IMG/VR virus record: IMGVR_UViG_3300025671_000028
Span: 1 to 33,707 of that record
Length of the DNA: 33,707 bases
DNA from: a virus
Strand: one strand, 5' to 3'
The position numbers and the translations under genes are program-made. This document shows, in pieces, positions 9,478-12,223 of this stretch. The notes under the pieces were generated by a model. The model searched no databases. It had not been told where the DNA came from and worked only from the letters and a program-made list of their open reading frames with translations. Each line of letters starts with the position of its first letter. Within the stretch, counting starts at the first letter, position 1.

Positions 9478-9864
9478 CTACGAAAACAACCTGCGGAACT
9501 GGTTTTTCACCGGATACACAAAGCCATCCTCGCGGCGCCGCCGCGGGCGATAGCACTTCGCATGATGCACCTCGCAGTACGAACTGCTCACCTTCACAAT
9601 GTCGCCGCAGAACTTGAACTCCGGCTCGCCGACAGCGCCAATCGGATATTGGCAATGCCGAAAGTCCGGCGTCTCAATATCGCGGTACGGCGGGCGATAA
9701 ACTTCAACAGGCGACGTGCTGTTAGGATGCTCAAGGCCGAGCCTGCCCGCCTTACCAATAACCTGATTCTTCGTCATCCCAAGTTCAGCCGCAATGCGGC
9801 GCGTCAGCATGCCAAGCGCATACAATTCGCGCAGGACCGCGATATTCTCTTCATTCCACGTCAT
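9478..9864 (-). CDS. gcrA: GcrA-family transcription regulator
   Basis: 128 aa from the ATG at 9864, which overlaps the end of the upstream gene by 14 bases and has a GGTGGA-type ribosome site. The start MTWNEENIAVLRELYALGM followed by RIAAELGMTKNQVIGKAGRLGL is the GcrA DNA-binding helix-turn-helix. The C-terminal part (CQYPIGAVGEPEFKFCGD, then YCEVHHAKCY) matches the GcrA sigma70-interaction domain. In Caulobacter GcrA binds sigma70 and activates promoters with methylated GANTC sites. A phage copy could steer host or phage promoters. It is the last gene of the reverse accessory operon. Confidence 0.85.
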   Translation of the reverse strand: MTWNEENIAVLRELYALGMLTRRIAAELGMTKNQVIGKAGRLGLEHPNSTSPVEVYRPPYRDIETPDFRHCQYPIGAVGEPEFKFCGDIVKVSSSYCEVHHAKCYRPRRRREDGFVYPVKNQFRRLFS

Positions 9865-10129
9865 CGTCTTCCACCTTCGCACATTCAGAGCCGGTCGCTG
9901 CATACCCGGCAAGGTCCACCCAGCTATCCTGATGATCCGGCGTTGCGGCCAGCCGGGCCAGCTTTAACGCCGCCATCATCATTGCAACCTGCGGCGCGCT
10001 AATCGACACCCCAAGCAGTATTGTCCACATGGCAGCAATGCGATCATGATTGTCCCTGACACTGCCATACACTGCTCCGCGATCTGTCATGACATCACGC
10101 GCTGCGGTCAGCAATTCAAACCGATTCAT
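9851..10129 (-). CDS. DUF6378-like phage protein
   Basis: 92 aa from ATG 10129, chosen because a GGAG lies 7 bases upstream of it and would be too close to the ATG at 10135. The core (VYGSVRDNHDRIAAMWTILL, then APQVAMMMAALKLARLA and DSWVDLAGYAATGSE) is the pattern of DUF6378, a small helical phage protein of unknown role seen near replication or regulatory genes. It reads into the gcrA start by 14 bases, so the two are probably translationally coupled. Confidence 0.7.
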   Translation of the reverse strand: MNRFELLTAARDVMTDRGAVYGSVRDNHDRIAAMWTILLGVSISAPQVAMMMAALKLARLAATPDHQDSWVDLAGYAATGSECAKVEDDDVE

Positions 10130-10181
10130 CGTCATTCTCCAGCTTGCCGCCGCCGCCGCAGGGGGCGCATGTTGCCCACAT
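10116..10181 (-). CDS. Candidate 21-aa zinc-ribbon-like micropeptide
   Basis: The ATG overlaps the TAA of the upstream membrane peptide (TAATG). The peptide contains C-A-P-C-G-G-G-G-K-L, the half zinc-ribbon (CxxCxGxGK) seen in tiny phage proteins, and ends inside the next gene's start region. It contains the ribosome site of that gene, so translating it may couple the genes. With only two cysteines it would have to pair or dimerise to hold zinc. Support is from position and motif only. Confidence 0.4.
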   Translation of the reverse strand: MWATCAPCGGGGKLENDDESV

Positions 10182-10246: not shown

Positions 10247-10458
10247 CGCTTCGCCTCTATCCGCCTGCCTGTTGTGTCGTGCTTCATATCCTCCGCGCGT
10301 AGCCGCGTCAGGATGGCATTGCCTGCCATAACGTCGTACCAATCTGGATCGTGCAGGCTTGCAAAAGTGTGCCCCCATATGTGGCCGGAAACGGGCATAC
10401 CGTTGCGGCGCACTGTTACCGGATCACCTAATGTAAAATTAGTTATGCTATTTTTCAT
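10243..10458 (-). CDS. Small hypothetical protein, possible SH3-like fold
   Basis: 71 aa from ATG 10458, chosen over an in-frame ATG at 10473 because the GGAGGGGG ribosome site lies between them. The N-terminal part (FTLGDPVTVRRNGMPVSGHI) looks like the first strands of a small beta-barrel (KOW/SH3-like). The middle is tryptophan-, histidine- and aspartate-rich and the C-terminus is basic. The ATG overlaps the previous gene's stop (ATGA). I do not recognise the family. Confidence 0.6.
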   Translation of the reverse strand: MKNSITNFTLGDPVTVRRNGMPVSGHIWGHTFASLHDPDWYDVMAGNAILTRLRAEDMKHDTTGRRIEAKR

Positions 10459-10724
10459 CGCGGCCCCCTCCACTCATCCTCATGCTGCCGGTCGGCAGCG
10501 ACTTGCAGCGCACGCGCCTTCGCTTGAAGAAAGGCGTCGTATTCGCGCATAAAGCCGCGCTCGCATATCTGTGTCGTGATGTGCCCTCCTTTATTTTCCG
10601 CCAAGGCAATGGCGTCAAGAAACTCGTCCTCTTCGTTGTCTAAATATTGAGACGTGTAATCGAGCGACAGCGCGTCGCCAAGAACGCGCCAGTATGTCAC
10701 CTGGTAAAACGTTTCGTATTTCAT
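10455..10724 (-). CDS. Small acidic hypothetical protein
   Basis: 89 aa from ATG 10724, with a GAGGGAGG ribosome site 5 bases upstream. It has an aromatic N-terminus (MKYETFYQVTYWRVLG), an acidic middle (DNEEDEFLDAIALAEN) and a helical, Ala/Arg/Gln-rich C-terminus. The frame stays open upstream to 11153 through the repeat region, giving a possible 232-aa Ala-Pro-Thr fusion, but the strong ribosome site and the hairpins between favour the short form. Family not recognised. Confidence 0.65.
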   Translation of the reverse strand: MKYETFYQVTYWRVLGDALSLDYTSQYLDNEEDEFLDAIALAENKGGHITTQICERGFMREYDAFLQAKARALQVAADRQHEDEWRGPR

Positions 10725-10742
10725 TTTTGCCTCCCTCAAGTT

Positions 10743-10850
10743 CCCCGGCGGCGGAAGCGTATGAATTCTTGACGCCGCCGGGGTGTCCAGCAGACCATTC
10801 CGCTGGCAACCCTTTGGCCCGGCAGTGACCGTCATAGTCACGTACCGGGC
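10743..10850 (-). other. Structured spacer with two hairpins
   Basis: The 148 bases between the glycine-repeat gene and the next start hold two strong inverted repeats. The first has perfect 11-bp arms at 10743-10753 and 10773-10783 around a 19-base loop, 19 bases upstream of the next start codon. The second pairs 10817-10822 with 10845-10850 and 10825-10829 with 10837-10841. Neither is followed by a U-tract, so they do not look like intrinsic terminators. They may be mRNA stabilisers, an attenuator or a cis-regulatory RNA. Confidence 0.6.
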
Positions 10851-10872
10851 TGGATGGAAAAGGAGTGTGGTG

Positions 10873-11160
10873 TCATCCGTAGCCGGAACCGTCGGCGTAG
10901 CCAGAGCCGTCGCCGTCGCCGTCGCCGTCGCCGTAGCCGGAGCCTGAGCCTGAGCCGAAGCCGGAGCCGTGGCCGGGGCCGGAGCCGTGACCGTCGGCGT
11001 AGCCGGAGCCGGGGCCGTGGCCGTCGCCGTAGCCGGAGCCGAAGCCGAAGCCGGAGCCGGAGCCGGAGCCAGAGCCGAAGCCGGGGCCGTAGCCGTGACC
11101 GTCGCCGGAGCCGTGGCCGTCGCCGGAGCCGGAGCCGGAGCCGGAGCCGTCATGCTTCAT
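10873..11160 (-). CDS. Glycine-X dipeptide repeat protein
   Basis: 95 aa: MKHD followed by 91 residues in which almost every second residue is Gly. The alternate residues are only Ser (about 18), Asp (9), Tyr (6), His (5), Phe (4) and Pro (3). A GGAGG ribosome site lies 9 bases upstream of ATG 11160, and the start lies inside the end of the DUF6948-like gene. All repeat codons end in C and Gly is almost always GGC. The residue set is that of flexible low-complexity or phase-separating proteins and could bind metal through Asp/His, but function is unknown. My impression is that similar Gly-X ORFs recur beside DUF6948 genes in other phages; this needs a search. Other frames of the repeat are also open, so translation of this frame is probable, not certain. 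Confidence 0.6.
   Translation of the reverse strand: MKHDGSGSGSGSGDGHGSGDGHGYGPGFGSGSGSGSGFGFGSGYGDGHGPGSGYADGHGSGPGHGSGFGSGSGSGYGDGDGDGDGSGYADGSGYG
10880..11150. repeat. Degenerate hexanucleotide repeat, about 45 units
   Basis: On the minus strand the unit is GGC-N-N-C. The two middle bases vary (TC, GA, TA, CA, TT, CC) while the other four hardly change; the few exceptions include GGT for GGC, and TCA or TCT for TCC. Because the unit is six bases, gain or loss of units never shifts the frame, and all six frames stay open over most of it. Confidence 0.9.
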
Positions 11161-11515
11161 GGCTTTTGGCCTCCATAATTGACTTCTGTGCGGATGAACT
11201 GCACATGATGATTTCGCAATTCTCGGTCAATTCGATTTCGACCGGACACCCTACTTTGCTCTCAGAATGCAGACCCTCAGAAGCCACGCCAGACAAAAAC
11301 GCTGCATTGTTCGCAGGCTTCCAGTACCAAAGCCTCCTGGCGTCTTTAAGAACGCAATTCCGCCCTGATGCCGAAACAAGAACTCCTGCATGAACGCCCG
11401 CGTCTTTGCACCGGACAATCACGTATTTACCAATGAACGGGCTTTCTGTTTTTTTTTCACCGAACGCTGCCGCAATTCGTTTGATGTCGCCTAGTGTCAT
11501 TGAATCAAAATCCAT
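11150..11515 (-). CDS. DUF6948-like phage protein
   Basis: 121 aa from ATG 11515 with GGAG 8 bases upstream. The core (IGKYVIVRCKDAGVHAGVLV, then DARRLWYWKPANNAAFLSGV and CEIIMCSSSAQKSI) is the DUF6948 pattern. It is a small, probably beta-rich phage protein of unknown function, found widely in tailed phages of different hosts. Its stop lies within the start of the glycine-repeat gene (11-base overlap), so the two are probably made together. Confidence 0.75.
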   Translation of the reverse strand: MDFDSMTLGDIKRIAAAFGEKKTESPFIGKYVIVRCKDAGVHAGVLVSASGRNCVLKDARRLWYWKPANNAAFLSGVASEGLHSESKVGCPVEIELTENCEIIMCSSSAQKSIMEAKSHEA

Positions 11516-11594: not shown

Positions 11595-11861
11595 TTAAGC
11601 CGCCCACTCATCCGGCAACTGTATGTTGATCGTGTGACATTTCCCGTCCCTCCAGTCGAAAACAACCTTCCAAGAAGCTGACAGGCGCTCGGCAGCGTAC
11701 CGTGCTGCGCCCGGAAGCGACATAACTTCAGTATCGCTGCCGTCGTTGTAAACGCCAACGATTTCGCGGTTTTCGCCAGTGGCATAAAGCCCAGCGCAAA
11801 CCTTGTTGGCGAACTCGCGGCGTTCGCTGTTGCGGATCGAAGAAGGAAGGAAAAAAGCCAT
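11595..11861 (-). CDS. Hypothetical protein, first gene of the reverse accessory operon
   Basis: 88 aa, ATG 11861 with GGAGG 5 bases upstream. Basic N-terminus (SSIRNSERREFANKV), then an alternating segment ending in a tryptophan-rich strand pair (WKVVFDWRDGKCHTINI). No known family recognised. It is the promoter-proximal gene of the operon that runs to gcrA and so is probably expressed early. Confidence 0.6.
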   Translation of the reverse strand: MAFFLPSSIRNSERREFANKVCAGLYATGENREIVGVYNDGSDTEVMSLPGAARYAAERLSASWKVVFDWRDGKCHTINIQLPDEWAA

Positions 11862-12004: not shown

Positions 12005-12223
12005 ATGAAAACAGTCAACGACATAGTCAAAATCTTAGGCGGAACCGGGAAAACGGCGGATATCGTCGGCGTTCTGCCCTCTGCGGTTTCGAATTGGAAG
12101 CGGTCCAAATTCATACCGTCTCGCCATTATTTTAAAATTTACAGAGAATGTGAAAATCGCGGGTACATCATACCCGATGAACTTTTCATAGACTATAGCC
12201 GCCGCGCTGGTCGTGCGGCATGA
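12005..12223 (+). CDS. Small helix-turn-helix regulator (Cro/CI-like)
   Basis: 72 aa. Residues about 5-45 (VNDIVKILGGTGKTADIVGV, then SAVSNWKRSKFIPSRHYFKI) form a helix-turn-helix of the Cro/YdaS type: a first helix, a turn with Gly, and a recognition helix beginning PSAVSNWK. It lies divergent from the accessory operon and next to GTAACC operator-like sites, so it may bind them. It is too short for a LexA-like cleavable CI repressor. The start has no Shine-Dalgarno and probably uses a leaderless mRNA. Confidence 0.75.
   Translation: MKTVNDIVKILGGTGKTADIVGVLPSAVSNWKRSKFIPSRHYFKIYRECENRGYIIPDELFIDYSRRAGRAA

Follow-up and report, generated by a model that had tools for sequence, protein, structure and literature searches.

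A glycine-dipeptide repeat protein encoded beside DUF6948, a predicted Sm-like protein, in phages

The Gly-X gene and its surroundings

The window, by which we mean the whole stretch of DNA analysed, is a viral contig of 33.7 kb. On its minus strand, at 10873..11160, lies an ORF of 95 amino acids (ATG to TGA) with counterparts of homologous position and composition in relatives. After an initial MKHD, glycine is encoded by GGC or GGT at 43 of the 46 'even' codons (40 GGC and 3 GGT); the three other codons in this register are two GCC for alanine, both within the sequence YAD, and a terminal GGA. The residues alternating with glycine, hereafter X (n = 45), are 18 Ser, 9 Asp, 6 Tyr, 5 His, 4 Phe and 3 Pro, which confirms the original prediction of a protein with Gly at nearly every second residue and with X restricted to S, D, Y, H, F and P. 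Codons ending in C account for 41 of the 45 X codons, local GDGDGDG runs occur near the C-terminus, and Tandem Repeats Finder reports a period of 6 with 45.7 copies and 78% matches.

The gene directly upstream (11150..11515, minus strand) codes for a 121 amino-acid protein of the DUF6948 family (PF22253; Pfam E-value 1.5e-26, 92.8 bits against a gathering cutoff of 27), for which the AF2 model has an Sm/LSm fold. Its end overlaps the start of the Gly-X ORF by 11 nt (11150..11160, minus strand), an arrangement that is kept in DUF6948-anchored loci and that we read as translational coupling. A Shine-Dalgarno-like GGAGG (11170..11174, minus strand) is located within the DUF6948 gene, 9 nt 5′ of the Gly-X ATG and, together with the overlap, it makes the Gly-X start credible. 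The window thus contains what we define as the module, namely a DUF6948 gene followed directly by a Gly-[SDYNFH] array that overlaps it.

In the array DNA, the five remaining frames are likewise mostly of low complexity and partly open, but it is the Gly-X frame that relatives conserve. One of them, an alternative minus-strand frame of 232 codons (10455-11153), runs with Ala/Pro/Thr repeats through the array and into the next gene, and can mislead gene callers; L001, a near relative, has a stop in this Pro/Ala/Thr frame shortly past the array. On the plus strand, an antisense ORF of Arg-Ser repeats (10854-11393) is a by-product of the Gly-X codons. The sole Pfam match of Gly-X, to TrAA12-like (PF22807), was rejected as a low-complexity match: it scores 20 bits against a cutoff of 30.9 and spans only positions 383-433 of the 463 in the profile.

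The pair lies within a minus-strand block, between the lysis/early region and a Cro-like regulator (12005-12223). The gene downstream of Gly-X (10455..10724, minus strand; 89 amino acids, no family match) is conserved in L001 and is outside the module elsewhere, and the one upstream of DUF6948 (11595..11861, minus strand; 88 amino acids, no Pfam or PHROG match) is mentioned as context. Further along the minus strand are found a DUF6378 protein (9854-10135), labelled phosphofructokinase in PHROGs, and a GcrA-like cell-cycle regulator (9481-9864; Pfam E-value 5.9e-21), the presence of which suggests an alphaproteobacterial host. A perfect 42-bp repeat (939-1026, 2.1 copies) was noticed in the Pro/Ala-rich end of the 30-1079 ORF.

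Linkage of Gly-X to DUF6948 across phages

With DUF6948 as anchor, a strict test placed a Gly-X ORF just downstream in 59 of 66 viral loci, in 12 of 17 genome contigs and in all 6 annotated phages. The misses that were inspected were mostly short, degenerate or distant arrays and, when the test was relaxed, nearly all DUF6948-anchored loci had a Gly-X ORF; among them, DUF6948 stands without any Gly-X clearly in L180 and also in the truncated L151. The reverse search used a DNA pattern for Gly-[Y/S/D/A] repeats, blind to DUF6948, and gave 120 viral-contig stretches. Among the distinct aromatic arrays, 64 had 600 nt or more of upstream sequence, and in 62 of these a DUF6948-type gene is present at most 1 kb upstream on the same strand, at a median distance of 38 nt. 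Iterating an HMM over the same loci had widened the DUF6948 search set, with homology and not position as the criterion, and its most divergent members depend on that step. A search for Gly-X ORFs beside DUF6948 genes, which had been proposed together with the original prediction, was strikingly positive in both directions.

In the modal layout, the start codon of Gly-X shares bases with the C-terminal Trp codon of DUF6948, read in a different frame (ATGG in 71 of 81), and SD-like motifs precede Gly-X in 55 of 81 relatives versus a background of 18%. The pair exists in cultured phages of Iodobacter, Pectobacterium, Vibrio, Chlorobiaceae and Rhodobacter and in 115 of 115 Rheinheimera Barbavirus records, and at least 22 relatives came from a pattern scan of genomes. 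On the strength of this gene order, the view that Gly-X is a near-obligate, translationally coupled partner of DUF6948 appears well supported. An N-terminal M-x-x-[ILV] of Gly-X was considered as a docking motif and was dropped, since it is largely forced by the overlap, through the DUF6948 stop (NTAG/NTAA in the other frame) and the Trp codon (ATGG).

The module has varied neighbours across 65 loci (DNA methyltransferases, RecE/RecT/ERF/Sak4 recombination proteins, ParB-like proteins, HNH and RusA nucleases); no gene family is common to these 65 neighbourhoods and the downstream genes are not conserved. This suggests that the module is a cargo of the early region and that the downstream gene is not its target. 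Many viral-contig stretches (e.g. L178, L187, L197, L202, L221) end inside or just past the array, so that assemblies may break there and the frequency of arrays may be underestimated.

Selection on the Gly-X frame and turnover of the arrays

The absence at X of the codon combinations for Leu, Ala and Val had been put forward in the original prediction as an argument for selection on this frame. Taken alone, the window provides a weak argument: under independent bases, 4.2 Ala would be expected at X and none is observed, while the expectations for Val (0.8) and Leu (0.7) are so low that their absence is uninformative. For Ala and for stops, the argument became overwhelming when 84 arrays, reached only through DUF6948, were pooled: Ala was observed 12 times versus 191 expected, a 16-fold depletion, and stops were absent versus 25 expected. 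In the codon square TCY/TAY/GAY/GCY, the usage was 683/533/472/12; Ala is one mutation away from Ser and from Asp, yet it is excluded at X. Pro is moderately depleted (3 versus 23 expected), the pooled X composition is 36% S, 27% Y and 24% D, and the test says nothing on Val or Leu. The third bases of the X codons track genome GC, with the residues unchanged.

Comparison of close relatives points in the same direction. L001 has a DUF6948 protein 95% identical to that of the window and nearly identical DNA flanks on both sides, with a rebuilt array in between: its length has changed, Pro is gone, His and Phe are nearly gone and Glu is present, but it is still a stop-free Gly-X array. In L002 the same kind of peptide is written with X codons ending in T. 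In the set of 115 Barbavirus records, members of the main group are 99-100% identical in their flanking DNA, and the arrays differ in length in 6-bp steps (210 versus 216 bp, and 240 versus 252 bp in a second species) and show Tyr/Asn swaps. Thus, as far as these sequences tell, the arrays turn over fast and in 6-bp steps, whereas the frame and the X alphabet persist. Relatives that kept the repeat with frameshifts, stops or random X residues would have spoken against the proposed selection; what is seen in L001 and in the Barbavirus arrays is a change of repeat number with the frame and the class of X residues maintained. That Gly-X is a real protein-coding gene, under selection in the Gly-X frame, appears well supported by these sequence data. 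A separate observation concerns phages with less than 40% GC (L130-L231), in which 68% of the array Gly codons are GGC versus 22% in the remaining long ORFs at those loci, although X codons there end in T; this preference for GGC may lie in codon choice or at the DNA level.

Predicted fold of DUF6948

An AF2 model of DUF6948, built on a 56-sequence alignment, has a pLDDT of 92.4 and the element order H-EEE-H-EE-H, a helix being inserted after strand 3; it displays the N-terminal helix and the five-stranded bent beta-barrel that define the Sm/LSm fold. In a Foldseek search of the PDB, all 50 matches listed were of Sm/LSm type, with a modest best E-value (0.009) and, for archaeal SmAP1, a TM-score of 0.73 over its own length. 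Sequence-based comparisons gave fainter signals. The second Pfam family matched was SM-ATX, the SM domain of Ataxin-2, below cutoff (best E-value 0.0063; 0.018 for the window protein), LSM was matched once among the 56 members (E-value 0.13), and Hfq was absent from the Pfam matches of these members up to an E-value of 10, with the reservation that matches above about 0.1 may be filtered out. With hhalign, the DUF6948 profile scored 25.3 against a small hand-made Sm/Hfq profile, versus a maximum of 16.1 for 300 column shuffles, and the alignment covered the Sm1 half only. Searching the PDB by sequence with DUF6948 gave no match, and its profile brought up nothing beyond a ribosomal match attributable to chance. 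DUF6948 is therefore predicted, on the basis of modelling, to have an Sm/LSm-type fold. The canonical RNA-contact residues of Sm proteins (Asp/Asn in Sm1, Arg-Gly in Sm2) are not conserved when the A1 and A2 alignments are inspected by eye, and for this reason we describe the fold of DUF6948 as Sm-like without assigning the protein to Hfq or LSm.

Some partners of Gly-X are divergent (RGFVYVG/RGW type), including those of Rhodobacter phage RcapNL and of the Barbavirus phages. A search of BFVD with the DUF6948 model matched a protein of Barba phage 12-9E (E-value 8.8e-4) of 104 amino acids, the length of the divergent partners, and this ties them to the DUF6948 fold.

Composition of the chain and co-variation with DUF6948

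The order of X residues within arrays is near random, with almost no autocorrelation and with run lengths as in shuffled arrays, which suggests that composition, and not a motif, is selected. From sequence, near-random order of this kind would mark a disordered chain under selection for its composition. The composition in turn follows the DUF6948 lineage: a Mantel test restricted to distant pairs gave r = 0.28, above all 500 permutations, and genome GC does not explain this link (r = 0.02). As an illustration, X is 36% Ser and 27% Tyr in the main group (A), and 9% Ser and 49% Tyr in the RGFVYVG group (C). Since the alphabet tracks the lineage despite the quick turnover of the arrays, it is presumably set by the partner, or by the lineage. 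Co-variation of charge between DUF6948 and Gly-X was looked for and was absent (Spearman -0.02), so simple electrostatic pairing is not indicated. The mean charge of Gly-X is negative, unlike that of RNA-binding RGG/GR tails.

Fusions and variant arrangements

At some gut loci, Gly-X makes up only a portion of a longer protein, where it may act as a linker. It precedes there a 155 amino-acid domain with an invariant H100 and an LTGSC motif (VYxIDxVPT ... FAHGxT ... WHHxLTGSCxxGR; L142:4510-5022, L144:4402-4866, L147:4522-4986, L082:1824-2291 and others). This domain is predicted with a pLDDT of 93.6, had no informative fold match in the PDB, and is possibly a new fold, judging from the model. 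Other arrangements were noticed. Arrays follow an N-terminal domain in L027, L041, L076, L110, L117 and L126, several with an 'AGAC-x-(D/E)GV' motif; in L056:2-739 and L087:12596-13357, Gly-X is followed by a domain ending in LHAT-x-LPxKW ... WIVAL-x-G ... GAL-x-REILGEA, with no family match; and L051:1717-2926 is a tandem of five paralogous Gly-X ORFs that share identical N- and C-termini and are preceded by a DUF6948-type gene. Fusion of DUF6948 to Gly-X has one clear case, L030, and because a second Gly-X copy follows, L030 may be a frameshifted duplicate. One profile, phrog_18306, matches both the DUF6948 and the Gly-X parts, which is suggestive only.

Comparison with known systems and possible functions

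Gly-rich or disordered tails in cis are known for SmD1 and SmD3 (Gly-Arg), SmB, LSm4 (RGG), Ataxin-2 and some Hfqs. The phage pair resembles eukaryotic Sm/LSm proteins and Ataxin-2 by the combination of an Sm fold with low-complexity Gly-dipeptide or disordered regions but, unlike the eukaryotic tails, which are basic, Arg-containing and in cis, Gly-X ranges from acidic to neutral, contains Tyr, lacks Arg and Lys, and is encoded in trans. A crystal structure exists for a Sm-like protein of cyanophage type. Phage Sm-like proteins (A0A6J5KXD6 in BFVD, 'Sm-like domain containing protein') share with DUF6948 a Sm-like fold and an origin in tailed phages; however, no Gly-X partner was found reported for them and their sequence relation to DUF6948 is probably remote. 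Glycine-alternating or aromatic sticker-spacer compositions are found in the silk fibroin heavy chain, lamprin, FG-nucleoporins and prion-like proteins, from which Gly-X differs in being viral, in excluding Ala, in its array of about 30-130 residues and in being tied to DUF6948. Another parallel is the Hfq of Acinetobacter baumannii, in which an Sm core is likewise joined to a long disordered, Gly-rich and aromatic-containing chain, here with GGFGGQ repeats, the number of which affects RNA affinity, autoregulation and fitness (PMC11617691). The Hfq repeat is a hexapeptide containing Gln/Phe and is carried in cis, whereas the phage Gly-X is a separate coupled ORF, strictly Gly-X with S/D/Y; DUF6948 itself is not an Hfq, having no Hfq match in Pfam and other conserved residues.

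The fold prediction, which had been missed in the original prediction, changes the functional reading. We propose that Gly-X would be a disordered, composition-selected polymer of low complexity, in which glycine spacers separate Tyr, Ser and Asp side chains, and that it would act together with DUF6948 early in infection, among genes of recombination, replication and DNA modification. The Sm-like DUF6948 core, probably a ring, would hold or be decorated by multivalent Gly-X chains, Gly-X being in effect a 'tail' supplied in trans. These chains may tune the nucleic-acid binding of the core, as does the disordered C-terminal domain of Hfq; alternatively, they may cross-link DUF6948 cores into a condensate. 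We regard the chances of this overall reading, a composition-selected polymer serving early on as a trans tail for an Sm-like partner, as evenly balanced; physical binding of the two proteins, the ring, the nucleic-acid ligand, and condensation or modulation are all inferred. Our preference goes to an assembly handling nucleic acids, to which Gly-X would contribute either multivalency (a condensate) or a competitor chain. A bolder version, which we offer tentatively and consider rather doubtful, is a phage-wide, two-component RNP-like organiser, in which the Sm-like ring and its fast-evolving trans tail would condense inside the cell early in infection, gathering phage nucleic acid and recombination enzymes or keeping them out of reach of Hfq and similar host regulators. 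Condensation taken by itself, one of the possibilities raised in the original prediction, is in our view also rather doubtful.

An acidic tip at the C-terminus of Hfq acts as an inhibitor at the nucleic-acid site and sets the bound time. By analogy, Gly-X could be a soluble autoregulatory or competitor chain in the nucleic-acid site of DUF6948, setting residence time without any condensate. Asp at about one quarter of X and the net negative charge of the chain would suit such a role, as would the fixed stoichiometry expected from translational coupling, and removal of the Gly-rich CTD of A. baumannii Hfq does change RNA affinity (PMC11617691). We nevertheless deem this unlikely, because Gly-X has no acidic tip (the Asp share of X only goes from 25% in the first quarter of the array to 29% in the last), Tyr is as abundant as Asp, and the charge of DUF6948 does not track that of Gly-X. 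Silkworm fibroin has a (Gly-X)n layout with X = A/S/Y. This likeness, and the annotation of the ORF as 'lamprin' in one phage record, could mean that Gly-X forms silk-like sheets or a sticky matrix with no nucleic-acid role, DUF6948 being its chaperone or anchor; but Ala, the main X of fibroin, is precisely the residue most strongly excluded, sheets would not readily stack with Asp at about a quarter of X, and the neighbours are early DNA-metabolism genes and not virion genes, which makes such a role quite improbable.

That Gly-X would be a flexible linker or tether, with an effector lost or encoded elsewhere in the Gly-X-only phages, is suggested by the several gut loci where it is fused to a confidently predicted domain, the one with H100 and LTGSC, and by the other loci with different extra domains before or after it. 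We find this decidedly unlikely as a general role, given that most members of the family, across many hosts, are Gly-X only, that a pure array is kept in 115 related phages, and that Gly-X is fused to several unrelated kinds of domain, the gut one having no informative fold match. The quick turnover of arrays between phages with 95% identical DUF6948 and the GGC preference in AT-rich phages (0.68 versus a background of 0.22) could also be understood if the GGNNNN array were a nucleic-acid element, such as a recombination hot spot or a translational brake, with the peptide as a by-product. Such an element would not account for X codons that follow genome GC while the residues stay S/D/Y, for the exclusion of Ala and stops, or for the conservation of the SD and the start; the downstream genes, moreover, are not conserved, and we give this element very little credence. 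Finally, the local GDGDGDG runs, seen here near the C-terminus, recall DxDxDG or RTX-like sites, and binding of Ca2+ or another metal by Asp-rich runs had been envisaged in the original prediction. The arrays show no periodicity or autocorrelation of Asp, the DD dipeptide is slightly depleted (0.86 of the shuffled expectation), some arrays have little Asp, and the strict Gly-X dipeptide does not follow the RTX/Ca2+ repeat consensus (a GGxGxDxUx nonapeptide or periodic Asp); metal binding thus finds no backing here and is extremely improbable.

To judge from the open-licence literature, no earlier description of the pair seems to exist; the novelty lies in the arrangement, the fold being a known one. 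In that literature we found no mention of DUF6948, a family with no assigned function, and neither the coupling to Gly-X nor the Sm fold is reported; searches with typical Gly-X peptides gave only matches with unrelated titles, and those combining glycine-rich proteins and phage were empty or irrelevant. If our reading is true, tailed phages of many bacterial phyla encode a Sm-like protein with a detachable low-complexity partner, and DUF6948 gains both a fold and a partner. The module would also be a natural minimal system for the study of how composition alone is selected in a disordered chain whose units vary in number and come in random order; many independent arrays are available, the Barbavirus collection adding very close variants on one host. 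In phage records, the Gly-X ORF is omitted (PhiPLPE), called hypothetical (Ymer) or annotated as 'lamprin' (one record), and the same reading would explain this class of skipped, hypothetical or mis-annotated ORFs.
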